Assembly (NCBI GenBank): GCA_025774645.1
Contig: JALGVN010000007.1
Coordinates: 1-37,081 of the forward strand
DNA length: 37,081 bases
From: a bacterium
GTDB lineage: Bacteria > Joyebacterota > Joyebacteria > Joyebacterales > Joyebacteraceae
Direction of reading: 5' to 3'
Position 1 is the first letter of the stretch. Each line of letters opens with the position of its first letter. Positions 16,097 to 34,024 of this stretch are shown here, one piece after another. The notes beneath the pieces were generated by a model, which did no database searches, was not told where the DNA came from, and saw nothing but the letters and a program-made list of their open reading frames with translations. The translations under genes and the position numbers were made by a program.

Positions 16097-19000
16097 ATGA
16101 GAAATGGCCGGCTGGTTCTCGCTCTGTGCGCACTCGTGCTCGTCTCGGGCGCCGCTTCCGCCTCGGGGCGCTGGGTGTCCTTCGGGACCAATCCTGCGCG
16201 GGAGGCCGAGGTCGACGTCATCTCGTCGGACATGTCCGGCGTCACGCTCGCGTTCAGCATCGTCGGAGCAGTCGCCGAGGACGCGTCAACGAACGGCGGG
16301 GAGTACGTGCGCCTGTCGATTCCGCCGTACGGACACACGACGGGCGTGGGGGAGGCGCTCCTTCCGGTGATTCGCGAACTCGTGGAGATCCCGGTAGGCG
16401 CCGTTCCGCGTCTGCGCGTCGTCTCCTCCGAGTCGCGCGTCGCGGCGCTCGGATCGCTCGGTCTCGCGCACCCGCTCCTTCCTGCACAGCCGCCGATCGA
16501 GAAGCTGCCCGGGGCGATCGACGAAGCCGAATTCGTTCTCTCGCGTGACTACTACGGTCGCGACGAGTTTCAGCCGCGAGACCCCGCGAGCGTGGGCGAC
16601 GTGAGGACGCTGCGAGGGCGAAGGTACGTCCAGCTCGAGATCACGCCGCTCCGCTACAACCCGGCCGGCGGCGCCCTCGAGCTCACGACGGACCTCGTCG
16701 TCAGGATCGACTTCGAGCGGGCCGACGCCGCCGCGACGAGGGGCGCCATCGAGAGATACTCGAACGCCCGATTCGACCGGCTCGCGAGCGATCTCTTCGT
16801 GAACGCCGACGCCTTCCGCGCCAGGTACGACCTGCCGCTCCCGATCGAGTATCTGATCATCGTCCACGACAGCTTCTACGACTCGATTCTCCCGCTCGCC
16901 GCGTGGCGGAACCAGAAGGGTCACCACACGACGGTCGTGAAGACGAGCGAGATTCCCGGCGGGAACACCAAGCAGAATATCAAGACCTTCATCCAGGACG
17001 CCTACGACAACTGGCCGGCGCCTCCGACGTACGTGCTTCTCGTGGGCGACACGCCGTACATCGACTACTGGGTCGGCACGCAGTCCGACAACCCCGCCAC
17101 GGACCTCTACTACGTCACCATGGACGGCCCGGACGACTGGGACCCGGATATCTGGATCGGGAGGTTCTCCTGCACGTCCGCGTCGCAGGTCACGAACCTC
17201 GTCAACAAGACGGTGGACTACGAGCGCTACGATCTGGTGAGCGGGACCGACTGGATCAAGAAGGCCGTGTTCATGGCCTCCTGCGACAATTCGAGCGTCC
17301 CCGAGGGCACGCACGAGTTCGTCATCGGCGAGTACCTCGAGCCTCGCGGGTACCTGTCGCAGCGGCTCTACTGCACGCAGGGCGCGACGGCGGGCGACGT
17401 TTCGGCGGCCCTGGACAACGGACGGACACTCTGCATCTACTCCGGGCACGGATCGATCACCTCGTGGGCAGACGGCCCGCCTTACAACGCCGGCCACGTC
17501 AACGCTCTCCACAACGCCGACAAGCTGCCGCTCGTCCACAGCTACTCGTGCCTGACCGGGATGTTCAGCGCGGCGTGCTTCGGCGAGTCGTGGATCAACG
17601 CGCCGGACCGCGGCGCGCTCGTGTTCTGGGGATCGTCGGTGACGTCGTACTGGGGCGAGGACGACATCCTCGAGAGGGGAGCCTTCGAGGCTCTCTTCGC
17701 GGAGGGGTACACGTGGGCGTGCGGAATCAGCCACAGGGCCCTCTACCACCTTCTCGACCACTACGGCACCGGCGGCAGCACGCGCCGCTACTTCGAGATG
17801 TACAACATCCTGGGCGACCCGGCGGTCGACATCTGGACAGAGCCGCCGGCCACGCTCGACGTGAGCCACCCGGCGACAGTCCCGATCGGCCTGCCGGTGC
17901 TCACGGCCGTCGTCTCAGACGGGCGCGACCCGGTCGAGGGCGCACTCGTGAGCGTGGTGAAGACTGACGAGGGCATCCACTCGACGGGGCGCACCGACGC
18001 CGCCGGACAGGCTGTGATCACGCTCGATCCGGCGCCGATGGTCACGGGCGCTCTCGACGTCACGGTGTCGAAGCACGACCGCCTCCCGTTCGAGGGAACG
18101 ACCTCCGTGACGAACGCCGACGTCCCGTTCTGCATCTACGACGGCCACGTGATCGATGACGACGCGAACGGCGGGAGCTCGGGCGACGGCAATGGACTGG
18201 TCGCGGCGAGCGAGACGGTGGAGCTCCTCCTGACGCTCCGGAACGTAGGGCTCGTGGACGGAGAGGGCGTCACCGCGACGCTCTCGACGGACGACCCGTA
18301 CGTGACGATCACGGACGGGTCGGAGGACTTCGGCGCCGTCCCCGCGGGCGGCACTGCCCAGAGCCTTGAGGACTACGACTTCTCGGTCGCGGGCGACTGC
18401 GGCGACGGGCACGAGATCCAGTTCGAGGTGGCGGCGTCCGACGGAGACAGCTCGTGGGTGAGCTTCTTCAGCGTTGGGGTGGGCGCACCGGCTCTCGTGC
18501 TGGGAGGCTGGACGGTCGACGACTCGCCGCCGGGAGGCGACGGCGACGGCTGCCCGAACCCGGGTGAGACGATCACGCTCTCCGTGATCCTCGAAAACGT
18601 CGGCAGCGAGCCGGCGCACGACGTGACGGCCGAACTGGGCAGCGTCGACCCCTACGTCTCGGTCGTCGGCGGGAGCGCAGGTACGGTCCTCATCGGGCCC
18701 GGCGGCTCCGGCGAGCTCGCCCCGGGGTTCACGGTGACCCTCGCGCCGGACACGCCCCCGCTGCACCTCGTCGACTACGAGCTCTCGGTCGGCACGGGCA
18801 CGGGCTACACGGGAACGGTCGCGCTGACGGCCGCGGTGGCCGGGGGTCTCGACGAGGGCTTCGAGGTCACGGGTCAGGACTGGAGCCACCACGTCGTTAC
18901 GGAGGGCTCCCTCGACCAGTGGCACGTCACGGACTACCGCTCGAACTCGGGAAGCTACGCCTGGAAGTACGGTGGACCCGGGGGCGGATACTACATGCCG

Positions 19001-19699
19001 TTCGCCGATGCGGCTCTGGAGACACCGGAGCTGTGTTTGGGCAGCGGCTGCGAGATGACCATGTGGCATCGCCTGAGCGCGCTCGAGGACGGCACCGGCG
19101 CGGCCGAGGACTGCGCGATCGTCGAGATCTCGTCTGACGGGGGAGCGACGTGGAGCCTCCTCGTTCCGCAGGGCGGGTACAGCCACGTGAAGAACTCCGA
19201 CCCCACGAACCCGCTGCCGGACGGGACGCCCTGCTGGTCGGGTACGTTCGACTGGCGCCAGGATGCGTTCGACCTCTCCGCCTACGTCGGCACGGGGCAC
19301 CTTGTGCGGTTCAGGTTCGCGGCCGACAGCTACGCGGGGCAGGAAGGGTGGTACGTCGACGACGTCGCGATCATGTGCTCTCCGTCCGGGATTGACGGGG
19401 GCGAGGTCGGCGCCGCGCCGTCGGAGTTCGCGCTGTTCCAGAACGCACCGAACCCGTTCAACCCGGTGACGACCATCGGTTACGCGCTTCCCGAGCGGAC
19501 CCACGTCACGATCTCGGTCTACAACGTGGCCGGCGCTCTCGTACGGACGCTCGTCGACGGCGAGCAGGAACCCGGCTCGCGCTCGGTCGTGTGGGACGGA
19601 AGGAACGAATCAGGCGGGAAGGTCGGCAGCGGCGTCTACTTCTGCCGCATGTCCGCCGGGAGCTTCTCCGACAGGAGGCTCATGGTCCTCCTGAAGTAG
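16097..19699 (+). CDS. secreted C25 (gingipain-family) cysteine peptidase with C-terminal FlgD-Ig-like domain
   Basis: Signal peptide; C25-like core with LLVGDTPYIDYW, IYSGHGSITSW (His) and HSYSCLTGMFSAACFGE (Cys); C-terminal FALFQNAPNPFNPVTTIGYALPE...VSVYN-like...GVYFCRMSAGSFSDRRLMVLLK. Confidence 0.88.
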   Translation: MRNGRLVLALCALVLVSGAASASGRWVSFGTNPAREAEVDVISSDMSGVTLAFSIVGAVAEDASTNGGEYVRLSIPPYGHTTGVGEALLPVIRELVEIPVGAVPRLRVVSSESRVAALGSLGLAHPLLPAQPPIEKLPGAIDEAEFVLSRDYYGRDEFQPRDPASVGDVRTLRGRRYVQLEITPLRYNPAGGALELTTDLVVRIDFERADAAATRGAIERYSNARFDRLASDLFVNADAFRARYDLPLPIEYLIIVHDSFYDSILPLAAWRNQKGHHTTVVKTSEIPGGNTKQNIKTFIQDAYDNWPAPPTYVLLVGDTPYIDYWVGTQSDNPATDLYYVTMDGPDDWDPDIWIGRFSCTSASQVTNLVNKTVDYERYDLVSGTDWIKKAVFMASCDNSSVPEGTHEFVIGEYLEPRGYLSQRLYCTQGATAGDVSAALDNGRTLCIYSGHGSITSWADGPPYNAGHVNALHNADKLPLVHSYSCLTGMFSAACFGESWINAPDRGALVFWGSSVTSYWGEDDILERGAFEALFAEGYTWACGISHRALYHLLDHYGTGGSTRRYFEMYNILGDPAVDIWTEPPATLDVSHPATVPIGLPVLTAVVSDGRDPVEGALVSVVKTDEGIHSTGRTDAAGQAVITLDPAPMVTGALDVTVSKHDRLPFEGTTSVTNADVPFCIYDGHVIDDDANGGSSGDGNGLVAASETVELLLTLRNVGLVDGEGVTATLSTDDPYVTITDGSEDFGAVPAGGTAQSLEDYDFSVAGDCGDGHEIQFEVAASDGDSSWVSFFSVGVGAPALVLGGWTVDDSPPGGDGDGCPNPGETITLSVILENVGSEPAHDVTAELGSVDPYVSVVGGSAGTVLIGPGGSGELAPGFTVTLAPDTPPLHLVDYELSVGTGTGYTGTVALTAAVAGGLDEGFEVTGQDWSHHVVTEGSLDQWHVTDYRSNSGSYAWKYGGPGGGYYMPFADAALETPELCLGSGCEMTMWHRLSALEDGTGAAEDCAIVEISSDGGATWSLLVPQGGYSHVKNSDPTNPLPDGTPCWSGTFDWRQDAFDLSAYVGTGHLVRFRFAADSYAGQEGWYVDDVAIMCSPSGIDGGEVGAAPSEFALFQNAPNPFNPVTTIGYALPERTHVTISVYNVAGALVRTLVDGEQEPGSRSVVWDGRNESGGKVGSGVYFCRMSAGSFSDRRLMVLLK

Positions 19700-19831: not shown

Positions 19832-22800
19832 CTAGTGCGCCCGCATCGCGAGCCGGACCGATCGCACGAGCTCGTAGGGCTCGTACGGCTTCTGCAGGAG
19901 GCGGAGTCCCTTGTCACGGACCAGCGTTCCCTGGTAGTCCTCGTCGAGGCGTCCCGTGCTCAGGAGGACCCGGATCTCCGGGCTCTTCTCTTTGAGTTCG
20001 TCTGCGAGCTGCGTTCCGCTCATGGCGGGCAGCACGATGTTGCTGAAGACGAGGTCGATCTGCCCGCCCTCCGACGCGAAGACCGCGAGGGCCTCCTCGG
20101 CGCTCGCCGCTTCGAGGACCCTGTAGCCTTGATCGCTCAGGGCCTCGACTGCGGACTGACGGACGTCCGACTCGTCCTCCACGACGAGGATCCTCTCCTC
20201 GGGGACCCGCACCGTCCGCCTACCCGACCTGCTCTCGGGGAGCGGCTCTTCCGCGGGGAGGTAGATCATGACGATCGTGCCGCGGCCGCTTCCGGTCTGC
20301 ACGTCGATCCACCCGTCGCGCTTCTGCACGATGTCGTGGACGGTCGACAGGCCCGGGGCACTGCGGCCGTCACGGCGCCGCGGGCTGAACGACGGATCGA
20401 AGATCCTCTCGAGCGACTCGGCGTCGAGGCCCTCGCCGGTGTCTTCGACCGACAGGCGCACGAAGCGTCCGGGGCGCCCGGCGGATCCTGCGGCGAGCTG
20501 CTTCGCGTCGAGCGAGAGGTTCTCCGTCCGCACGGTGAGCGTGCCGCCGTGCGCCATCGCGTCCCTGCCGTTGACGGCGAGGTCCGCGATCACGCGCTCG
20601 AGCTCTTCCTTCTCGATGAGCGCGCTGTCGAGTCTGGGGCGGAGAACGGTGACGACCTGGACGTCGCTTCCGACCAGGCGGCGGAGCGTCTCTTCCATCC
20701 CCTTGAGGACGACGTTCGCATCGAGCCTCTCCGTGTCCTCGGGCGCGGCGCCCGAACTGACGGTCACGAGCTGCATCATCAGCGTCTTGGCGCTGTCGAT
20801 GGTCTTCTTGATCTGGCCGATGTCCTCGCGCGTCGGATCGTCGGAACCGTGGCGGCTCGCCAGAAGATCGGCGTAGCCGACGATCGCCTCGAGCTTCCCC
20901 TCGATCTGGTGGACGACGCCGGTCGCGACCTCCATGATGTCGGCCTTCTCGCCGTTGTGGGCGAGCTGTGCGTGTGCCACCTCCATCTCCGCGACGGTGC
21001 TCTCGAGCTCCTCGAGGAGAGTTGCCCTGCGCCACTCCGCCGCGAGGATGCTCGCGAACGACGAGGCGAACGGGATGTGCTCCTCCGTGAACTCCGGCGA
21101 CCGCACGATCACGACGCCGAATGCGTCGTCGTCGACCGCGAGGGGGGAGAGGGCTGCCTTTCCGCCTTCGAAGAGCTTCTCGGTACGCTCGGCCGCCTCG
21201 ACGGTCTCCTTCTTGAGCATGCGCATCGCGAGGCTCCCGGGATCCTCGAGGAAGACCGTCTTGCGGTCCTCGTAGGCTCCCGCGAGCTCCGGCGTCTCGG
21301 CGATCGTCGCGCGTACCACGGTGGTGTCGATGGCGGCGGGGCCGCCGTCGCCCGTGACGTGCTTGATCGCGAGGGACCCTTCCTCCTCGTCGACGAGCAT
21401 CAGGAGGCACGAGAACCCGAGCTTCCTGAGCTCCCGCTCGGCGGCTTCGAGTACGGCCGAGGGCGTCCGGGCGCGGGCCATCGAGAGCGCGGCGTCGCTC
21501 ACCGCCGCCACGAAGCGTTCGCGACGGCGGAAGACGGTGACGTCCCGCTGGGCGAACACGTATCCCGTCGTCTCGCTCGAGTCGTCGAGGATGGGGGAGA
21601 CCCGCGTGTGGCAGGTCAGGACCGCCCCGTCGGGACCGGTCACCGAGTGCGTCCCGGACCATATCCCGTCCTGGGCGATGGCGTCCCGGATCTCGTTGCG
21701 GACGTCGCCGGCCCTGTCGCCGTTCGAGACGAGCTTCGGCGTCTGTCCGACGAGGTCGTCGCTCGAGCATCCGTGGAGCCTGCCCGCGGCCGGGTTCGCG
21801 TCGGTGATCGTGAAGTCGGTACCCGTCACGAGGATCGCGTCGGGCATCTGAGCGGAGAGCTCACGCGTGAGCCCGCCCTTCTCCTCTTCCGCATCCGGGG
21901 CGGCGACGCCCGAACAGAGCGCCGCGGTCGGGTGCCCCTCCTCGTCGGTCACGAGCGAGCAGTTCCAGACGACGTTCTGTTCGCTGCCGTCGACAGCGAG
22001 AACGACGCTCCGGAAGTCCCTGATCTCGCCGGCTTCACCGGACAGGAGTCGGTCGAACCGGGACTTCGTTTCGACTCTTGCGGCCTTCGGCACGAACGTG
22101 TCGCTCCAGTTCCTTCCGAGGATGCCGTCCTTCCCGATCCCCAGGATCTCGCACCCGCGCCCGTTGACGTCGACGACCGTCTGGTCGACCGAGAGCGTCA
22201 TGAAGATGACGCTCGCCAGATCGAGGTAGCCCCTCGTCCTGTCCCGGTCTCGCGAGAGCTCGGCCTGCATGCTCCGGCTCTCGGTGAGGTAGCTCTCGGC
22301 TCTCTTCTTCTCGCCGAGAAGGGCGTCCTCGAGCCTCCCAAGTTCGGCCCTGCCGCGGTCGCGCTCCTCCCGCGTGTTCGTGAGCTCCTCCTCGAGGCGT
22401 GCCTCCATCCCGGGGCGCCCGGATGTGCGTCCGGGGGACGCCCCCGCAGAGCGCGCGGCGTCCTTCCTGGTCTCCTCGAGCTCCGCCTGGAGCTCGCCGG
22501 TCCGCCCGGTCTGCCAGGCGAGCTGTTCCCCGATGCGCTTGACCTCCGCGTCGAGCGTCTCGGTGCGGTTCCTCTCGATGGAGAGGTTCTGTCTCGCGTC
22601 GTCGAGGTGGGCCTGGATCTCGGCCGTCCCGTCACGCTCACGCGTGATCGCCTCGCGCGCCTTCTCCTGACCGAGCCGGAGCTTCTCGGCCCTCGCCCTC
22701 TCGCGGGAGAGGACCTCCTCCGCTTCGCTCCAGGCGACGCGGATCTTCGCCGATTCCTCGCGCTCGCGCGTCAGCTCCTCGCGAACCCTCTGGCGCTCCT

Positions 22801-25381
22801 CGGCGAGCCGCTCCGTCTTCTTGCGCTCCCTCGAGACTTCCTCCGAGGCCCGCGCCTGATCTGTCCTGAGTTCGGTGGTTCTCTCTCGCTCGCTGCGGAG
22901 TTCCTCCTGCAGCTTCGCGTTCTCCGCCTGCGTCCGCTCGGTCTTGAGTCTCTCGAGGTCGAGCGTCTCCTGCAGGCCCATCTGAGAGGCGAGGAGGTCT
23001 TCCGCTTCCTGTCTCGTCCGGTCGAGCTCGTCCGATGCGTCGTCGTGCTCGGCCAGGTACTGCTCGACCGTCACGCGCTCGATGGCGAGCTCTTCCATGG
23101 CCTTGCGCTGCTCGGCGAGGGCCTCTTCGGCCCTCTCGCGCTCGCGGCGGAGCTCCGCTTCCGACAGCTCCCTGGCCCGCGCAAGCTCGTCCTCGGCTCT
23201 CTTCTGTGAAGCCGTGAGTTGCTCGCTCTTCTCGCGCTCCCGCGCAATCTCGTCCTCGAGTTCGCGGCGGACGCTCGCGTCTTCGATGATGCAGACGGTC
23301 TGGCCTGGGCGCCCCGCGGCGGCGGCGTCGACGAACCTGATCGACGCGTCGAGCGTCGAGCCGTCGGCGCGGGTGAGCGAGAACTCGCGGGTCCTCGGTG
23401 ACTCTCCGGCGAGCGCAGCGGCCAGGGACTCCGGCCGCTGTCCTCCGGACTCCCACCTGATGAGCGCGTCGAGGGGGTGTTCCATGAGTTCGCTGGGCCG
23501 GTAGCCCAGAAGCTCCTCGGTGGCGGCGGTCGCACGGACGATCGCTCCCGAGCTGTCGACGCGGATCGCGGGCGTGCCTGCGGCTTCCAGGAACGTCCAC
23601 GATGCGTCCCAGCCGCTGACGGACGGCACTGGGGCGTCGGGCGTGACGTCTGGGGCGTCAGGCGTGACGTCCGCGGCGTCGAACGTGTCGTCGGCGACGG
23701 GCGCGCCGTCGTTCCGTTCAGTAGGGGTCTTCTGCGCGCCGGCCAGGGTCTCGCTGCCGGCTTCCCGGCTCCTGTCGTCGCTGTCTTCGTCGGTCTCTGA
23801 CGCCGACCAGCCGGATCCGTCCGGCTGAGTCGTCGCGCCCACGGACGCGGGTACCTTCTCTCCGGGCGACTCGTCGTCCTCCGACCCGTTTCTCGGAACG
23901 AGTTTGCACGAGTAGGCGACGCCGAGTGGCTCGCCCCTCTCACTCGCCACGGCCCGTGCGGTCGTCTCGACCTCCACCAGGCTCAGGTCCTTGCGCTTCG
24001 CGGCAAGCGTGCCCGTCCAGCGTCCCTGTTCATCGACCGTCCTCTGAGCGATCTCGAAGATCTTCTCCGAGTCCCAGAGCGTCGCGGCCGCGCGGCCGAC
24101 GATCTCCTCGCGGTCATCGTATCCCCAGAGGTCGAGGCAGGACGGGTTGACGTGCCTCACGGTCCCGTCGAGGTCCGTCACGAATCCGGCACCCGGGGAG
24201 GTAGCGGCTGCGCTCGCGAGGATCATCAAGGCGTCGTCGACAGGGGCGCAGCGCTGTTCGGCCGTCGAGCAGCCGAGCTCGGCGCCGAGCGAGACCGCGA
24301 ACTTCTGGAAGCGTCTGTGCTCGCGCGAATCGTGGGCGCGTTTCTTCGATATCGATACGGAGAGCATTCCAACGAGCTGCCCGTCGTTCTCAAGCCTGGC
24401 GGTCATCGCCCAGCGTCCGCGGTAGGCGCTGCGGATCGGGCAGTCTGCGCACTTCACGGGACCGCTCTCGGTGATGACGAGCTCCCTGCGGACCTGCGCT
24501 CTCATGACGCAGGGCGGGAGCGCGGCGCGCTTCAGCCGGTCGGTGAACGCCTGCAGGCCGTCGTCGAGTCCGGTCCCGACGGCCGACGCGTAGCGTCCCC
24601 CGCCGCCCAGGTACGCGGCCCAGGCGGTGTGATACGCCTTGTCCTGCGCGAGTTCGTCGACGGCGCTCTGGAGGATCTGGTCGGGAGTGTTCGTGACCGG
24701 ACCGTCGGTGTCAGCCGCGCCGTCGGTGTCGGGCGTGTCGTCGGTGTCGGTCATGTCGGCGTCGTCTCCGACGTCTTCGTCTCCGCCGCTGCTGCTCGCG
24801 TCGACCACGTCGTCGGGAGGTTCCTCCGAACCGTCGGCGCAGGTCTCCTCGAGCTCGGTCTCCTCGTCCTCGGACACGTGGACGATCTCCTCGAGCGGGC
24901 CATCGTCGATCTGCCCGTCCTCGGACGGAGACGTCTCCTCCGCGGATCCTCCGACCGTCTCGATGTCCTCTTCCGGTTCGGGACCGTCGAGGAATCCGTC
25001 GGTGTCGATCTCCCAGACCCGCCTGTCAGACGCGCCCTGCGCGCCGTCGCGGGCCCCCCTCGCGGTCCCGTCGGCGTTCCACGCCAGGACGGGGGGATCT
25101 TCGTTCTGCGTCGCGTCCTGCGCCACGTTCGCCTCGACCGCGGCCTTCCGCGACCGGGCGACGCGCGAGCCGATCCAGACGGCGACGACACCGGCAGCGA
25201 GGGCTCCCGCCGCGACACCGATCCTGATGAGCAGCGCCTGGAACGGCGCCTCGCTCCAGAGGAGGTCCACGAAGCCGGCGCCCGACGCGCTCCTTGAAGC
25301 AACGTACGCATCGACCGCCCAGAAGGCGGCGCCGGCGCAGAGCGAGATGCTTATGGTCGTTATCTTCCGCTTCACGGTCAC
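19832..25381 (-). CDS. giant multi-PAS/GAF hybrid histidine kinase-like protein (1849 aa) with degenerate catalytic and receiver residues
   Basis: N-terminal TM region, acidic linker, GAF-like domain with KCADCP, PAS domains, about 350-aa coiled coil, PAS/GAF, HisKA-like 'GVVHQIEGKLEAIVGYADLL', HATPase-like 'DLAVNGRDAM...DTGEGLD', C-terminal receiver 'ILVVEDESDVR...DLVFSNIVLPAMSG...LLQKPY'. Confidence 0.88.
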   Translation of the reverse strand: MTVKRKITTISISLCAGAAFWAVDAYVASRSASGAGFVDLLWSEAPFQALLIRIGVAAGALAAGVVAVWIGSRVARSRKAAVEANVAQDATQNEDPPVLAWNADGTARGARDGAQGASDRRVWEIDTDGFLDGPEPEEDIETVGGSAEETSPSEDGQIDDGPLEEIVHVSEDEETELEETCADGSEEPPDDVVDASSSGGDEDVGDDADMTDTDDTPDTDGAADTDGPVTNTPDQILQSAVDELAQDKAYHTAWAAYLGGGGRYASAVGTGLDDGLQAFTDRLKRAALPPCVMRAQVRRELVITESGPVKCADCPIRSAYRGRWAMTARLENDGQLVGMLSVSISKKRAHDSREHRRFQKFAVSLGAELGCSTAEQRCAPVDDALMILASAAATSPGAGFVTDLDGTVRHVNPSCLDLWGYDDREEIVGRAAATLWDSEKIFEIAQRTVDEQGRWTGTLAAKRKDLSLVEVETTARAVASERGEPLGVAYSCKLVPRNGSEDDESPGEKVPASVGATTQPDGSGWSASETDEDSDDRSREAGSETLAGAQKTPTERNDGAPVADDTFDAADVTPDAPDVTPDAPVPSVSGWDASWTFLEAAGTPAIRVDSSGAIVRATAATEELLGYRPSELMEHPLDALIRWESGGQRPESLAAALAGESPRTREFSLTRADGSTLDASIRFVDAAAAGRPGQTVCIIEDASVRRELEDEIAREREKSEQLTASQKRAEDELARARELSEAELRRERERAEEALAEQRKAMEELAIERVTVEQYLAEHDDASDELDRTRQEAEDLLASQMGLQETLDLERLKTERTQAENAKLQEELRSERERTTELRTDQARASEEVSRERKKTERLAEERQRVREELTREREESAKIRVAWSEAEEVLSRERARAEKLRLGQEKAREAITRERDGTAEIQAHLDDARQNLSIERNRTETLDAEVKRIGEQLAWQTGRTGELQAELEETRKDAARSAGASPGRTSGRPGMEARLEEELTNTREERDRGRAELGRLEDALLGEKKRAESYLTESRSMQAELSRDRDRTRGYLDLASVIFMTLSVDQTVVDVNGRGCEILGIGKDGILGRNWSDTFVPKAARVETKSRFDRLLSGEAGEIRDFRSVVLAVDGSEQNVVWNCSLVTDEEGHPTAALCSGVAAPDAEEEKGGLTRELSAQMPDAILVTGTDFTITDANPAAGRLHGCSSDDLVGQTPKLVSNGDRAGDVRNEIRDAIAQDGIWSGTHSVTGPDGAVLTCHTRVSPILDDSSETTGYVFAQRDVTVFRRRERFVAAVSDAALSMARARTPSAVLEAAERELRKLGFSCLLMLVDEEEGSLAIKHVTGDGGPAAIDTTVVRATIAETPELAGAYEDRKTVFLEDPGSLAMRMLKKETVEAAERTEKLFEGGKAALSPLAVDDDAFGVVIVRSPEFTEEHIPFASSFASILAAEWRRATLLEELESTVAEMEVAHAQLAHNGEKADIMEVATGVVHQIEGKLEAIVGYADLLASRHGSDDPTREDIGQIKKTIDSAKTLMMQLVTVSSGAAPEDTERLDANVVLKGMEETLRRLVGSDVQVVTVLRPRLDSALIEKEELERVIADLAVNGRDAMAHGGTLTVRTENLSLDAKQLAAGSAGRPGRFVRLSVEDTGEGLDAESLERIFDPSFSPRRRDGRSAPGLSTVHDIVQKRDGWIDVQTGSGRGTIVMIYLPAEEPLPESRSGRRTVRVPEERILVVEDESDVRQSAVEALSDQGYRVLEAASAEEALAVFASEGGQIDLVFSNIVLPAMSGTQLADELKEKSPEIRVLLSTGRLDEDYQGTLVRDKGLRLLQKPYEPYELVRSVRLAMRAH
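22240..23275 (-). other. long coiled-coil segment inside the 1849-aa kinase-like protein
   Basis: Continuous E/R/K/A/L-rich heptad-like sequence from RRELEDEIAREREKSEQL... to ...SMQAELSRDRDRTRGYL. Confidence 0.8.
23631..23672 (-). repeat. tandem 21-nt repeat (2 copies) encoding DVTPDAP
   Basis: GGGGCGTCGGGCGTGACGTCT / GGGGCGTCAGGCGTGACGTCC on the + strand, in a linker of the kinase-like gene. Confidence 0.85.
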
Positions 25382-25449: not shown

Positions 25450-28400
25450 CTAGGTCGGTTCGATCGTCTCCCGGATCGTGCGGAGGAGCTCGCCGATGTC
25501 GTAGGGCTTCGGCAGGAAGGCGAGTCCCTTCTCATCGATCACGGACCACTGCGATTTCTGGTCTGTGTAGCCGCTCGAGAGGAGGACGTGGAGCTCCGGA
25601 CTCACAGAGAGGAGCTCCTCGACGAGCTGCAGCCCGCTCTTGGCCGGGAGGACGACGTCGCTGAAGATGAGGTCGACCCGGCGTTCCTCGTTCTCGAAGA
25701 TGGTCATCGCTTCCTCGGCGCTCGTCGCCTCGAGGACCTCGTACCCGCCCTCGGAGAGCGCTCTCTTGGCGAAGTCCCGGACGTTGTCCTCATCCTCGAC
25801 AAGCAGGATGCGCTCGCCGTGTCCGAGGACCTGCTCCATCGGGAGGTCCGCGACTTGCTCTTCCTCCGTGACGGCGGCCGTCACAGGCATGTACACCTCG
25901 AAGGTCGTGCCCGCGCCGGGCTCGCTCGACACGCCGATCCAACCGCCGTGCGGCTTCCTTCGTGCTGAAGAACGGCTCGAAGATGCGGTCGACGACCGCC
26001 TGGTCGATGCCCTCGCCGGTGTCCTTCACGGAGATTCGCACGTACTCGCCCGGGCGGGCCTCGCCCACGTCCTGGCACTCCGGTTCACCGAGCGTGGTGT
26101 TCTCGGTCCGGATGGTGAGCGTTCCCCCTCCCGGCATCGCGTCACGGCTGTTGATGGCGAGGTTCATGACGACCTGCTCGATCTGGGACGGGTCGGCCTT
26201 CACCTGCCTGAGCCCTCCGTCGAGATCGACCACGAGCTCGACGTCCTCGCCGATGAGGCGGCGGAGCATCTTGTCGGTGTTCGTGACGACGTCGTTCAGC
26301 GAGAGCACCTTCCGCTGGAGAGGCTGTCTCCTGCTGAACGCGAGGAGCTGGCCGGTGAGCGCTGCCGCCTGCTCGCCGACCTTCTTGATCTGCGACACGT
26401 CCGAGTAGGTCGGATCGCCTTCATCGACCCTGCGGAGCACGAGCTCCGCGTAACCCGTGATCGCGGTCAGGAGGTTGTTGAAGTCGTGTGCGACTCCTCC
26501 GGCGAGGTTCCCGATGGCCTCCATCTTCTGCGCGTGGAGGAGAATGTCCTGCGTTCTCTTGAGTTCCTGCAGGCTGTTCTCGAGCTCCTGCATGAGGTTC
26601 GCCTTGCGGAGCGCGGCGGCGAGCTGGTTGGCGAACGCCGTTATGGCCGGGGCGTCCTTTCTGGTGAGTTCGGCTGAGCGAACCGCCAGGACGCCGGTGA
26701 CGTCCTCGCCCGCGATGAGGGGAGCGAGAATCGAACGCTCGGCGTACAGCATGTCGGCGAGACCGTCGCCGTCCCCCCACGTGGAGGGGGCGGACGCCGC
26801 GCGCGTGGTTCCCTGCGGTCCTTCGATGAGGATCGCCCGCCGCTCGCTCGTGACCCTCCTGATCGGGTCCGCCGGGTTTGCCGAGATCGGCACGCCCGCG
26901 ACGGCGAGCGTGTCGATGTACTCGTCGGCCTCTGGGAACTCGACGCTCTCGCTCACGTACCGGAGCGTGACCTCGCACCGGCCCGGGTAAGCCATGAGGA
27001 CCGCGCACGAGAGTCCGACCCTTTCGAGTTCCTGCGCGACGGCCTCGAGGATCTGCTCCGCCCTGAGGTGACGCTCCATGCCGAGGGCCGCTGCGTTCAG
27101 CGTCTGCAGCAGCTGCTCCGCCCTGGTGCGTTCGGTCATGTCGTGGAAGATGGAGATGTACGAGGAGAGGCGTCCCTGCCTGTCCCTGAGAGGGGAGACG
27201 CGGAACTCGACGAGGAACGTGCTCCCGTCCTTCCGCCTGTTCATGCGCCCGCCGCTCCACACGCGTCCCGACGAGACGGTCCGGTGGATCTCGTCCTGGA
27301 ATTCGTCACCCCACGCTTCGGCCGAGAGGAGGTCGAGCGTCTTTCCGATGAGCTCGCCGCCAGGGTACCCGACCTGCAGCGGGATCGAGCCCAGGAACTG
27401 GAGTTCCTCCTCGGCCTGCTTCCTCGATGTGATGTCGCGGACGACGGCGGTGAAGAAGGTGTCGTCGCCTGATTTCCAGGCGCCGATCGAGAGCTCCATC
27501 GGGAACTCGCTCTCGTCCTTCCTGAGGCCGATGCCCTCGACGGTGGCGCGGACATAGCCCTGGCCCTCGGCTGAGACTGCGCGCATGAGACCGTCGACGT
27601 GCGCCTGGAGGAAGCCCTCCGGCACCACGAGCGAGAACGGCCTCCCGACTGCCTCGTCCGAGCTGTAGCCGAACATGTTCTCCGCGGCCTTGTTCCAGAA
27701 GATGATCTTCCCGTGGCTTTCGACGTTGATGAGTGCGTCGTTCGACGTCTCAGCGATCGCATTGAAGCGTCCGTCGCCGTGTCTCCTGGCACCCTCGGCC
27801 TGGGTCCGCGCTATGGCGGGCGCGACGACGGCGGCGATGTCGCACATCAGGTCCTCGGCGTCCTCGCCGAACGCGTCGTCGTCGGTGTAGCTCTGAACCG
27901 CGATGGCCCCGATCGCTCCTTCTGGGGAGAGGAGGGGGACGCCGAGCCACGACTTGCACGGCGTACCGACGACTTCGATCTCACCCGTTGTGACCATGCG
28001 GGCCACGTCTTCCTCGGTGGCGATGAGCGGCGCGCGCGTCCTCACGACGTGCCCCGTCAGGGTCTTCCCCGGCGGGAGGGTCTCGAACTGATTCTGGTCC
28101 TTCTCGTCGAGGAAGAGCGGGAGGTCGATCCTCTCGGTCTCCTGGTTGTAGAGAGCGACGAAGAAGTTCCTCGTGTCGATGAGCTTGCCGAGCTGCTGCC
28201 TCACGGTGCGGTAGAGCTCGTTCGGGTCTTCGGTGGAGCTCGCCTTCGCCGAAACGACCCTGAGGATCTCGCGCTCCATCATCGATCTCCTGCGCCCCGT
28301 CTCGTCGACGAAGGAGAACGCCAGCGCGAGGATCTTCCCTGACTGGTCGGTCGCGACGGTCGCCGAGACGGCGACGGGGAAGGAGGTGCCGTCGGAGTGC

Positions 28401-29989
28401 TTGGCCTCGAGGTCGCCGCTCCATCTGCCGCCTGCCTTCAGTTCGCCGAGCATCTCCGAGACGGCCTGGGGGTTCACGAGAAAGCGACCGATCGGGACTC
28501 CGAGGACCTGCGGTACGTCCCTGTAGTTCCACGCTTTCAGGAACGCGTCGTTGACGCGTACGACCGCGCCCTTGTCATCCGCTATCATGGCGGGGTCGAG
28601 CGAGTTGTCGACAGCGCGCTCGGCGACGCTGATCTCCTGTTCAGCCAGACGGCGCTGGGCAGCGGCGGCGTAGACGTCCGCGAGCCGCTCGAGCGTCTGC
28701 TGGTCGTTCGGCGTGTATCCCTGGCTCGAGTTCGCTACCGCGATCACGCCCAGAAGGTGACCCGCCGCGACGGCGGGCACGCCGAGGAAGTTCGCTATCG
28801 GGGAGGGGGCGTTGGGAACGCCGTCCCACTCGTCGCTCAGCTGGGGTTCGTTCGTCCGGAGCGTCTTCGAGGTCTCGAGGACGCACGTCCAGAGTCCGGG
28901 GTAGCGTCCGGCGGGCGCCGATGTGTCCGGCTGCTCTAGCGCGGTCTCGCCGGTCTCCGCTTCGCAGCCGTCGGCGTCAGCCTGCGCGCACGCCGGGCTC
29001 GACGTTGAGGGGAGGCCCTTCGACGACTGGACGATGGGCACGCCCGATCTGGGGTCCATCATCCAGACGACCCCCTCGCTGCTGCCGGTCGTGGCCATTG
29101 CGTGGTCGAGCACGCTCTCCGCGATCTCGTTGACGGGTGCGTCGCAGGCGACGACCGCGTCGGTCAGCCGGGCGAGCGCCTCGGCGGACTTCTTCTCCGT
29201 CGCGAGTTCGTCGGCCGTCCTGGAGCGCATCCTCTCGAGCTCGATCGCCCGAAGTGTCATTCCCAAGTCCCACGCGACCTTCAGGAGGAGAGCCTTCTCC
29301 TCGTCGTCGTCCACGGTTTGAGGCGGGGCGGAGACGCACAGGACACCGTACGTCCTGTCGCCGGCGGAGATGCGCACGATGAGGTTCCCGCGGCCGTAGT
29401 GCTTCGGCTTGAGCGGGCAGTCGCCACACTCGGCGACCGGGTCCTGGAACACGACCGGGTCGGGTCTCGTGAGCGCCGTGCGCGCGCACGCCGGTCGCCT
29501 CCCGTTCTCCATGGCGTTCCGGAGCGCGTCGAACTCCTCACCCCACCCGCCCTCCGCGGCGGCCGCCAGCCCGCCGCTCCCGTCGAAGATCCCGATCCAG
29601 ACCTTCTCGTAGTTTCTCGTCGATATCAGCTGCCGGCACGCTTCGGCGACCAGCGGCTCGACGTCGGTCTCGCGGATCGTGAACCCGATGATGCTCCGCA
29701 CGGTCTCGAGCTTCCCGTTCAGGTGCTTCGCCTCTTCCTCGGCCAGTCTGATTCGGGCCATGAACATGCCGGGCGCGAGGTAGATTCCCGAGACAACCAG
29801 AAGGACGACCGCTCGGTAGAGGACCTCGTGGAAGAGGTCGCCGGCGAGCCTCATGTTCAGGAACGGGACGTTCCGGCCGATGACGTGACCCAGGATGGGG
29901 TCGATGGTCAAGGCCGCGAGGGCCACGACGATGATCAGGCACAGCGTCTTGGGCAGTCTGCTCATGGTCCGCTCCATTCGTCCCGACAA
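25450..29989 (-). pseudogene. multi-GAF/PAS hybrid histidine kinase with receiver domain; reading frame broken in the HATPase domain
   Basis: ORF 29989..25790 carries TM region, GAF with ECGDCPLKPKHYGR, PAS/GAF domains, H-box GGVAHDFNNLLTAITGYAEL, N-box NLAINSRDAM, G1 DTGEGID and F-box FEPFFSTKE, then goes out of frame. ORF 25932..25450 resumes with (HGGWIG)VSSEPGAGTTFEVYMP and receiver ILLVEDEDNVR...DLIFSDVVLP. Confidence 0.85.
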
Positions 29990-30576: not shown

Positions 30577-30912
30577 TTGAAGGTCAAGACCCAGATGGAA
30601 GGTGACGTCGCCCTCGTTCACGTCTCGGGCAAGCTCATGGGTGGACCCGAGAGTGAGAACCTGAGGAACGAGATCAAGCAGCTCCTCGACAAGGGCACGA
30701 CGAAGTTCGTGATCAACCTCAAGGGCGTGCCGTGGATCAACAGCACGGGGCTCGGAGCGCTCATGGCTGTCTACACGAGCGTTCAGAGGGGCGAGGGCGT
30801 GCTCAAGCTCGCGCACGTCTCCGACCGGATCCAGAGCCTGTTCATGATCACGAAGCTCCTGACGATCTTCGACACGTACGCGACTGAGAAGGAAGCCATC
30901 GATAGCTTCTAG
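30577..30912 (+). CDS. STAS-domain anti-sigma factor antagonist-like protein
   Basis: MKVKTQMEGDVALVHVSGKLMGGPES...FVINLKGVPWINSTGLGALMAVYTSV; GGAGGTG SD and TTG start. Confidence 0.92.
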   Translation: MKVKTQMEGDVALVHVSGKLMGGPESENLRNEIKQLLDKGTTKFVINLKGVPWINSTGLGALMAVYTSVQRGEGVLKLAHVSDRIQSLFMITKLLTIFDTYATEKEAIDSF

Positions 30913-30934
30913 CGACCCGACCGAGAGAGCGACC

Positions 30935-31390
30935 ATGTCTGATGCGGGGTCCGGAAGCCAGGAGCTCGTGCTTCCGAGCGAGTACGAGACGCTTGAGCGC
31001 GTCGACGAGATTCTCCTCGGCTGCTCGCGCTTCAACGCACTCGACGAGAAGACCCAGAACGAAGTGGCGCTGGCCATGATCGAGGCGGTCACGAACGCCG
31101 TCGTTCACGGCAACCGGCTCGACAAGAGCAAGCAGGTGACCGTCACCTGCGACTGGGATCCTGACGAGATTCGGATCAGCGTTCACGACGAGGGCGAGGG
31201 CTTCGACGAGAGCTGCGTGTGGGATCCGACCGATGCCGAGCACTGCATGAAGTGCTCGGGTCGCGGGGTCTTCATCATGCGGGCGACGATGGACGACGTC
31301 GAGTTCGAGATGTCGAAGGAGACGGGCACGACCGTCAGGATGCGGAAGCGCACTTCGGGAGCGGGGGGCGGGTCCGGGGGGGAGGGGTAG
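30935..31390 (+). CDS. RsbW/SpoIIAB-like GHKL serine kinase (anti-sigma factor type)
   Basis: ALAMIEAVTNAVVHGN N-box, VHDEGEGFDES G1, GRGVFIMRATMDDVEF G2; immediately downstream of the STAS gene. Confidence 0.9.
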   Translation: MSDAGSGSQELVLPSEYETLERVDEILLGCSRFNALDEKTQNEVALAMIEAVTNAVVHGNRLDKSKQVTVTCDWDPDEIRISVHDEGEGFDESCVWDPTDAEHCMKCSGRGVFIMRATMDDVEFEMSKETGTTVRMRKRTSGAGGGSGGEG

Positions 31391-31449
31391 CTTCGGGAGG
31401 CCCTGCGCTCTGTCCGACGAGCTCCATCCAACCGCCGCCACCAAAGAAG

Positions 31450-31477
31450 AGAGGGGCCCTCTTTCGAGGGCCCCTCT
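31450..31477. terminator. intrinsic terminator-like hairpin between convergent genes
   Basis: AGAGGGGCCCTC tttc GAGGGCCCCTCT followed by TGTTGTT. Confidence 0.8.
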
Positions 31478-31502
31478 TGTTGTTCCATACCCGTTTCCCC
31501 GT

Positions 31503-31706
31503 CTATGCTGCTGTCTTCTTGAGCTTGTCCACAGCGCCCGAGCGGATGCAGGAGGTGCAGACGAGGATCTTCTTGGGCGTGCCGTCTATCACGACGCGCA
31601 CGCGCTGGAGGTTCGGCAACCACCGGCGCTTCGTCACGTTGTGAGCGTGGCTGACATTGTGTCCCACGCGCGGGTGCTTCCCGCAGATATCGCAGCGTCT
31701 CGACAT
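31503..31706 (-). CDS. rpmB: 50S ribosomal protein L28 (four-cysteine type)
   Basis: MSRRCDICGKHPRVGHNVSHAHNVTKRRWLPNLQRVRV...KKILVCTSCIRSGAVDK. Confidence 0.96.
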   Translation of the reverse strand: MSRRCDICGKHPRVGHNVSHAHNVTKRRWLPNLQRVRVVIDGTPKKILVCTSCIRSGAVDKLKKTAA

Positions 31707-31972
31707 GGTGTCCTCCAAGGTTCGGTCACGAATTGACGAATCTAGCACGGCCGCCTGCCGCGCGCAAGGTCTTTCGGGGGCCCTCTCGGCCGTCTTGACC
31801 CCGTTTCCGCGCTGGTCTAGAATCTTGGCTGCGCGGTCGCGCCGCATCCCGGTCGGCGGCCGCCCGGCGCCACCGGGCGCCGACGAGCGTCACCGCGTGT
31901 ACACGCGCGTCCCCTGGGAGAGGGAGGACCGGTATCGCTACCGAGACGACGCTCTACTCTGACGTCCGCTAC

Positions 31973-34024
31973 GTGAAGGGCGTCGGCCCCAAAATGGCCG
32001 CTCTCTTCGCGAAGGGCGGCGTCGAGACCATCGAGGATCTCCTCTACTACGTCCCGCGCACGTACGCCGACTGGTCGCGCATCGCGAACGTCGACACGCT
32101 CAAGGTCGGCGACCGCGTGACGGTCGTCGCCCGCGTGCTCTCGTGCGACGTGTCCCGCCGCGGCCGGTGGTCGATGTTCGTGGCCGCGCTCGAGGACGAC
32201 ACGGGGGCGATCTTCGCGAGGTGGTTCAACCAGCCGTACCTCCAGAACGTGCTCGAGACGGGGACGAAGGCGGTCGTCTCCGGCGAGGTGCGCTTCGACA
32301 AGCACGCCAGGCGCACCGAGTTCGTGAACCCTGCGTTCGAGGTCATCCGGGAGGACGAGGCCGCGGAACTCGTGCACGCCGGGAGGATCGTGCCGGAGTA
32401 CTCGCAGATCGGGGATCTCTCCGGCAGACGCATCCGGCGGATCATGAAGACCGCCATCGACCGCTTCCTCGACGTGCTCGTCGACCCGCTCCCCGAGGGA
32501 TTGCGGAAGAAGCACGCCCTGCCCGGTCTCCGCGAGGCCATGGGGGACGTCCACTTCCCGCCGTCGCTCGAGCGGGCGGAGCGGGCCCGGTCGCGCCTGG
32601 CGTACGAGGAGTTCTTCCTCTTCCAGGTCATCGTCGCGCTCCGGAAGCTCCGCGCTGCGACCGGCGGTCCGGCGGTCCGCTTCGACTGGAACGAGGCCGA
32701 GCACGCGCGGCTCCTCTCGTCGCTGCCGTTCGAGCTGACGGCCGCGCAGGAGCGCGTAGTCGGCGAGATCCGCGGCGACATGGCGGCCGACCGTGCCATG
32801 AACCGGCTCCTCCAGGGCGACGTCGGCTCGGGGAAGACGGTCGTCGCGGCCGCGGCGATGCATCAGGCGGTCGCGAACGGGTATCAGGCCGCGATCATGG
32901 CTCCGACCGAGATCCTCGCGGAGCAGCACCACGAGAACATCACGGCGCTCCTCGCGCCGCTCGGGGACCGGGTCGTTCTTCTTCGCGGCGGCATGAAGGC
33001 CGCCGACCGGGAGGAGGCGCTCCGTCACATCGAGAGCGGCGAGGCGGAGGTGGTCGTCGGAACCCACGCGCTCATCCAGGAGGGCACCCTGTTCGGGAAT
33101 CTCGCGCTCGCGGTCGTCGACGAGCAGCACCGGTTCGGCGTCGTGCAGCGCGCGGCGCTCCGAGCGAAGGGGAAGGCGCCCGACATCCTCGTCATGACGG
33201 CGACCCCGATCCCGAGGACGCTCGCGCTGACGGTGTACGGCGACCTCGACGTGTCCGTGCTCGACGAGCTGCCGCCTGGGAGGATGCCGGTCGTCACGGC
33301 GGTGCGCGACGAGGCGGCGCGCGCGAGGGTCTACGAGTTCCTCAGGAAGGAGATCGGGGAGGGGCGGCAGGTCTTCGTCGTCTACCCGCTCGTCGAGGAG
33401 TCCGAGAAGCTCGAGCTCTCGGCGGCGACGAAGATGTACGAGGAGCTCCGCGGGAAGACCTTCAAGGACGCGAGCGTCGGACTCATCCACGGCCGGATGA
33501 AGCCCGAGGAGAAGGACGCGGTGATGGACGAGTTCAGGAAGGGGAAGACCGACCTCCTCGTCTCGACGACGGTCGTCGAGGTCGGGGTCGACGTGCCGAA
33601 CGCGACCGTCATGCTCATCGAGCACGCCGAGCGATTCGGTCTGGCGCAGCTCCACCAGCTGCGGGGCCGGGTCGGAAGGGGAGCGCACAGGTCGTACTGC
33701 GTGCTCATGGTCGGGACCGGGGCGTCCGACGAGGCGAGGGAGCGGATCCAGGTCCTCGCCGACACGAACGACGGGTTCCAGATTGCAGAGAAGGACCTCG
33801 AGATCAGAGGCCCGGGCGAGTTCCTGGGAGTCAGACAGCACGGGCTCCCGCGGTTCTCGGTGGCCGACCTCTCGCGCGACTCGGAGCTCCTCGTGCTGGC
33901 GCGCGACGACGCGTTCGCGTTCGTCGACGACGATCCGGGGATGAAGGGGACCGAGGCGGCGCTCGTGAGAGCGGCGATCGAGCGCCGGTTCAGGGACAGA
34001 GAGACGTTCATCGACGTGGGGTAG
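31973..34024 (+). CDS. recG: ATP-dependent DNA helicase RecG (true start probably upstream, near 31934)
   Basis: YVKGVGPKMAALF, LLQGDVGSGKTVVAAAAM, MAPTEILAEQH, VVDEQHRFGV, MTATPIPRTLALT, GRVGRGAHRSYC. Confidence 0.95.
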   Translation: MKGVGPKMAALFAKGGVETIEDLLYYVPRTYADWSRIANVDTLKVGDRVTVVARVLSCDVSRRGRWSMFVAALEDDTGAIFARWFNQPYLQNVLETGTKAVVSGEVRFDKHARRTEFVNPAFEVIREDEAAELVHAGRIVPEYSQIGDLSGRRIRRIMKTAIDRFLDVLVDPLPEGLRKKHALPGLREAMGDVHFPPSLERAERARSRLAYEEFFLFQVIVALRKLRAATGGPAVRFDWNEAEHARLLSSLPFELTAAQERVVGEIRGDMAADRAMNRLLQGDVGSGKTVVAAAAMHQAVANGYQAAIMAPTEILAEQHHENITALLAPLGDRVVLLRGGMKAADREEALRHIESGEAEVVVGTHALIQEGTLFGNLALAVVDEQHRFGVVQRAALRAKGKAPDILVMTATPIPRTLALTVYGDLDVSVLDELPPGRMPVVTAVRDEAARARVYEFLRKEIGEGRQVFVVYPLVEESEKLELSAATKMYEELRGKTFKDASVGLIHGRMKPEEKDAVMDEFRKGKTDLLVSTTVVEVGVDVPNATVMLIEHAERFGLAQLHQLRGRVGRGAHRSYCVLMVGTGASDEARERIQVLADTNDGFQIAEKDLEIRGPGEFLGVRQHGLPRFSVADLSRDSELLVLARDDAFAFVDDDPGMKGTEAALVRAAIERRFRDRETFIDVG

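Follow-up and report, generated by a model that had tools for sequence, protein, structure and literature searches.

In Caulobacter, the hybrid kinase CckA is controlled by the pseudo-histidine kinase DivL, which has kept its other boxes (PMC4211667). In Corynebacterium glutamicum, a dead ChrS influences the signalling of the paralogous HrrS (PMC9491836), and in ShkA of Caulobacter, which is an active kinase, an internal pseudo-receiver serves as a c-di-GMP switch (PMC7010744). The phospho-accepting Asp is missing from 2.0% of receivers and the phospho-accepting His from 0.9% of HisKA domains, and a 2025 review terms the switching of bacterial pseudo-receivers a mystery (PMC12632262). Few natural, conserved pseudo-histidine kinases have been described. 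Pseudo-histidine kinases and pseudo-receivers are thus already known, and it is their combination in one conserved hybrid kinase that is new; a limited literature search with narrow phrases turned up no report of a conserved hybrid kinase in which the phospho-His and the receiver Asp are both missing.

Such a protein is encoded in the window (the whole stretch of 37,081 nucleotides analysed here, contig JALGVN010000007.1) by a gene with a GTG start (Table 1). The first-pass annotation had reported a frame open over 5.5 kb, and all 1849 codons are indeed uninterrupted. Two hydrophobic N-terminal segments are followed by a GAF domain with a CxxC motif, PAS1, PAS2, a coiled-coil-like segment of ~340 aa, PAS3, PAS4, GAF2, a DHp-like region, a CA domain and a pseudo-receiver. 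Pfam matches include HATPase_c (52 bits) and Response_reg (64 bits), both above the cut-off, as well as PAS and GAF domains; no Pfam match to HisKA was found in the protein. The ~340-aa segment is conserved in two orthologues (G002 and G008, introduced below) and has no counterpart in any of the canonical paralogues compared. We read it as a putative coiled coil from its composition and a heptad-like signal at 3.5 residues, which is weak although the strongest among the periods tried. An AlphaFold2 model of the core, monomeric and of moderate confidence (pLDDT 75, pTM 0.45), shows DHp, CA and REC elements as expected; its best match among solved structures is the DHp-CA region of CckA (5idj), the CA domain aligns to 5idm at 2.9 A, and ShkA (6qrj) is also among the matches.

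Table 1. Features of the pseudokinase and of the adjacent hybrid kinase in the window
Feature	Coordinates	Strand	Basis or remark
Pseudo-hybrid histidine kinase (1849 aa)	19832..25381	-	ORF reading, Pfam, alignment
Putative membrane anchor: first ~100 aa, two hydrophobic stretches	25082..25381	-	Sequence; conservation in the orthologues of G002 and G008
Glu/Arg-rich coiled-coil-like segment, aa 706-1045	22247..23266	-	Pseudokinase clade only
GAF2 domain, aa 1291-1450	21032..21511	-	Pfam, paralogue comparison
DHp-like region, aa 1451-1570	20672..21031	-	His1491 at 20909-20911, then Gln
CA/HATPase domain, aa 1571-1715	20237..20671	-	G1 intact; F-box and G2 degenerate, first N-box Asn replaced
Pseudo-receiver, aa 1728-1849	19835..20200	-	Asn1781 for phospho-Asp; acidic pair and Lys kept
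CckA-like hybrid kinase upstream of pseudokinase	25450..29989	-	Broken in window assembly; intact in G001, G002, G008

In the window copy, the phospho-His site is occupied by His1491 (CAC) with Gln1492 next to it, the N-box reads D1600/N1604, the G1 box (DTGEG) is intact and the G2 box is degenerate (RSAPGLS at aa 1673-1679, within GRSAPGLS). At the phosphorylation site of the receiver stands Asn1781, encoded by AAC at 20039-20041 (GTT on the + strand), while the acidic pair E1735/D1736 and Lys1831 are retained. The positions given for this protein in the first-pass annotation (His, Gln, G2, the Asn codon, acidic pair and Lys) are all right to the base.

A search of 20 genomes of the phylum identified orthologues at the same position in three other species, two belonging to the genus of the window organism (G001 and G002) and one to a different genus of its family (G008), with 91, 64 and 42% identity to the window protein core, so that the evidence on the pseudokinase comes from four species. 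In G001 the orthologue carries a frameshift of its own, near window-protein residues 272-288, and is thereby divided in two (L031 8606-9637 and 9367-14298). In the order window/G001/G002/G008, the phospho-His site reads H/Q/G/K and the residue following it Q/Q/Q/E (acid lost in three of the four); the first N-box Asn is D/D/D/G, lost in all, and the second is N/S/N/N, kept in three. G1 is intact throughout. The F-box Phe is replaced in every copy (S/S/S/A), GTGLG of the G2 box has become RSAPG/RSAPG/RTTRN/RAGFG, broken in every copy, and the receiver Asp is Asn in all four, which come from separate assemblies. The first-pass annotation had proposed to test whether His-Gln, the degenerate G2 and the Asp-to-Asn change co-occur in orthologues: the last two do so without exception, but His-Gln is not uniform, since the phospho-His itself has been lost in three of the four. 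The His read at 20909-20911 is therefore correct for the window copy but is not conserved, and with Q, G or K at this site in the orthologues and His in all 77 canonical kinases it looks like a leftover.

These 77 are the other hybrid kinases aligned from the 20 genomes, and every one of them keeps the His, the Asp after it, the second N-box Asn, the F-box Phe and the receiver Asp, so that the losses in the pseudokinase are not due to chance. A first test for enrichment of losses at catalytic motifs over other conserved columns, which included a few wrong-frame rows, found none, and was later rerun domain by domain. About half of the near-invariant canonical columns in DHp/CA are lost in the pseudokinases compared to one of 13 in the receiver, this being the phospho-Asp, always changed to Asn (Fisher p 0.005–0.022 per sequence, the four sequences not being independent). 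With 12 of these 13 columns kept, the pseudo-receiver is preserved specifically, its phosphorylation chemistry excepted, and the kinase half has drifted. No orthologue has the intact catalytic residues that the first-pass annotation had named as the counter-case, G2 and the receiver Asp being lost in all four. The protein thus retains the kinase fold (HATPase_c above the cut-off, predicted DHp-CA fold resembling CckA) and has lost catalytic residues in a conserved manner, except for the His of the window copy, as is proper to a pseudo-histidine kinase; it likewise carries an aspartate-less pseudo-receiver (Response_reg match, Asn in all copies). An active hybrid histidine kinase would have intact H, N, F and G2 boxes and a receiver Asp, which this protein does not. 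Nor is it an orthologue of DivL, for which Tyr or Ala at the phospho-His site, intact remaining boxes and no receiver would be expected: it has H/Q/G/K at the His site, has lost other boxes and possesses a receiver.

The dN/dS analysis suggested in the first-pass annotation points to purifying selection. Nei-Gojobori estimates between the window and G001 are 0.143 for the 400-aa core (bootstrap 95% interval 0.09–0.21), 0.089 for the CA domain and 0.15 for the receiver, compared to 0.72 for the linker between PAS1 and PAS2; the degenerate CA domain is the most constrained part of the protein. Over the whole protein the ratio is 0.23, versus 0.16 for the canonical neighbour. These ratios rest on G001, as divergence at synonymous sites is too high to give reliable values against G002 or G008. 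With a core ratio of 0.14, the core of the pseudokinase is under purifying selection and is not decaying, and we reject recent decay or sequencing error on the evidence of the four species together with the low dN/dS.

Directly upstream of the pseudokinase, in the same synteny in all four genomes, lies a hybrid kinase gene whose nearest solved relative by sequence is CckA. It is encoded on the same strand, with 68 nt between its stop and the downstream pseudokinase, and this linkage, conserved in four of four genomes, is what would be expected of a regulator and the kinase next to it. The first-pass annotation had credited this neighbour with a canonical GxGLGLS box, which is true only of G001, G002 and G008; in the window the box is missing because it falls within a 50-nt deletion relative to G001, accompanied by a frameshift (~25951), so that the gene exits its frame just past EPFFSTKEA and the remainder with DLIFSDVVLP sits in another frame. 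A PAS domain of the gene has also lost 72 nt in frame relative to G001 (~27371). The missing PAS segment, whose presence elsewhere in the window genome would have pointed to an assembly error, was not found there; contig C365, which might have carried the neighbour a second time, holds a different kinase. Both gaps fall within otherwise conserved stretches and the assembly is fragmented and 81% complete; assembly error is a plausible explanation. If the frameshift is real, the proposed partner is dead in the window organism.

The locus is conserved across the phylum, with RecG, an RsbW-like ATPase and a STAS protein on one side of one or two hybrid kinases and, in most genomes, a convergent C25 peptidase beyond them. 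The pseudokinase occupies the second place in four genomes, while in G019 (L034) and G009 (L035) both hybrid kinases of this locus are intact and present a natural before-state of the pair. The pseudokinases form a single clade (support 100/100) on long branches (0.86 and 1.44); AU tests on its position gave p 0.018 for placement with only the four neighbours and p 0.31 with the second genes, and together with the trees they did not single out one sister group. PAS3 also occurs in second-place and single kinases but not in the first gene, whereas the CxxC GAF has its counterpart in the first gene, and on these grounds the pseudokinase appears to be a mosaic derived from this locus. Similarity to the neighbour is 53–54% for the pseudo-receiver versus 37–41% for DHp-CA, a single-gene paralogue comes close to this value for the pseudo-receiver (52%), and in a receiver tree the pseudo-receivers group weakly with first-gene receivers (71/68).

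The non-catalytic role proposed by the first-pass annotation is well supported by the losses conserved in orthologues (G2 and receiver Asp in all four, phospho-His in three) and by purifying selection. Since the phosphotransfer steps are all lost, constraint is retained, the gene has a fixed place behind a CckA-like kinase and a rod has been added, we propose that the protein acts without catalysis, most likely as a modulator of that kinase or a scaffold for it that is anchored in the membrane, the partner being suggested by the invariant tandem position in four of four genomes. A hybrid-kinase paralogue would have arisen at a tandem kinase locus, and autokinase activity and receiver phosphorylation would have been lost once, in the common ancestor of the two genera, with the gene since kept by selection. 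The pseudokinase would regulate the adjacent kinase as a dimer anchored in the membrane, using its PAS/GAF sensors and long rod to control where the active kinase is placed or how active it is. It would do so by heteromeric DHp/CA contacts and/or by docking of the pseudo-receiver at the site meant for the neighbour's own receiver or partner. We infer dimerisation, contact with the neighbour, pseudo-receiver docking, absence of activity and direction of effect, and we hold the explanation as a whole, that of a true pseudo-enzyme selected as regulator of the adjacent kinase, to be probable.

It is unlikely that the protein is instead a stand-alone sensor scaffold or a ligand-binding protein (e.g. 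a nucleotide-binding CA domain with a rod) acting on proteins other than the adjacent kinase: G1 is kept in all copies, the second N-box Asn in three, and the coiled-coil-like segment is unique to this clade, yet the same hybrid kinase gene always immediately precedes this one. Some nucleotide binding or weak activity may persist, as the window His, G1 and the second N-box Asn (three of four) have survived. That the protein is still catalytic with unusual motifs, for example as a phosphatase or as a weak kinase using His1491, is nevertheless very improbable: the window copy retains the His and HATPase_c scores above the Pfam cut-off, but the orthologues have Q, G or K at this site, the acid after it is lost in three, and the F box, G2 and receiver Asp are gone from all four. 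A gene decaying toward loss, or an assembly artefact, could be suspected from the accelerated clade, the frameshift in the N-terminus of the G001 copy and the broken neighbour in the window. This is largely refuted, and we give it scarcely any credence, as the frame is open in the window, G002 and G008, dN/dS is far below 1 with CA most constrained, and the same Asp-to-Asn change occurs in four separate assemblies. A specific form of the regulatory reading has the pseudo-receiver act as a decoy on the neighbour's DHp, or bind a shared Hpt, and so block phosphotransfer. The phospho-Asp alone is changed among the near-invariant receiver columns, and the greater resemblance to the neighbour's receiver and the weak grouping with first-gene receivers agree with it; however, a single-gene paralogue is nearly as similar, the sequence data do not separate a decoy from general modulation, and we regard this form as doubtful.

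Like DivL (PMC4211667), the pseudokinase is a kinase homologue with several PAS domains that lacks a functional phospho-His and is linked to a hybrid kinase of the CckA type. DivL, however, keeps the H, N, G1, F and G2 boxes except for the His itself and has no pseudo-receiver (PMC4211667), whereas the window protein has lost F, G2 and the receiver Asp, derives from a tandem hybrid-kinase locus and carries a long coiled-coil-like rod. Dead ChrS offers the example of a catalytically dead kinase acting on signalling by an intact paralogue, which for the window protein is only proposed, but it is a laboratory-evolved frameshift, non-hybrid and not conserved (PMC9491836). ShkA likewise has a pseudo-receiver within a hybrid kinase, but its kinase is active (PMC7010744), unlike the predicted-dead window protein. 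Pseudo-receivers in general share the Asp-less receiver (PMC12632262); here both losses occur in one hybrid protein and are conserved across species. We suggest, tentatively, that a doubly dead hybrid kinase may have become fixed as the dedicated partner of its CckA-like neighbour, with a membrane-anchored rod and an Asp-to-Asn decoy receiver mimicking that of the neighbour, as an independent analogue of CckA-DivL in another phylum. The locus would be the second case, apparently of independent origin, in which a pseudokinase is associated with a CckA-type kinase, and the matched pair of intact kinase and dead paralogue, together with the both-intact relatives G009 and G019, allows the gain of a non-catalytic role to be placed on a tree and tested.

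At 30577-34024 (+) of the window lie a divergent STAS protein, an RsbW-like HATPase_c_2 protein and RecG, syntenic through the phylum, with a possible anti-sigma partner-switch pair among them beside the kinases. At 16097-19699 (+), convergent with the kinases, is a C25 (gingipain-like) peptidase with a propeptide and a C-terminal FlgD-Ig-like domain. The relatives are sediment metagenome-assembled genomes (BHB10-38_Bin_124, Meg22_46_Bin_130 and Meg19_46_Bin_182); other bins with the prefixes BHB10-38 and Meg22 appear in a study of new FCB phyla in Guaymas Basin and Bohai Sea sediments (PMC9727166).
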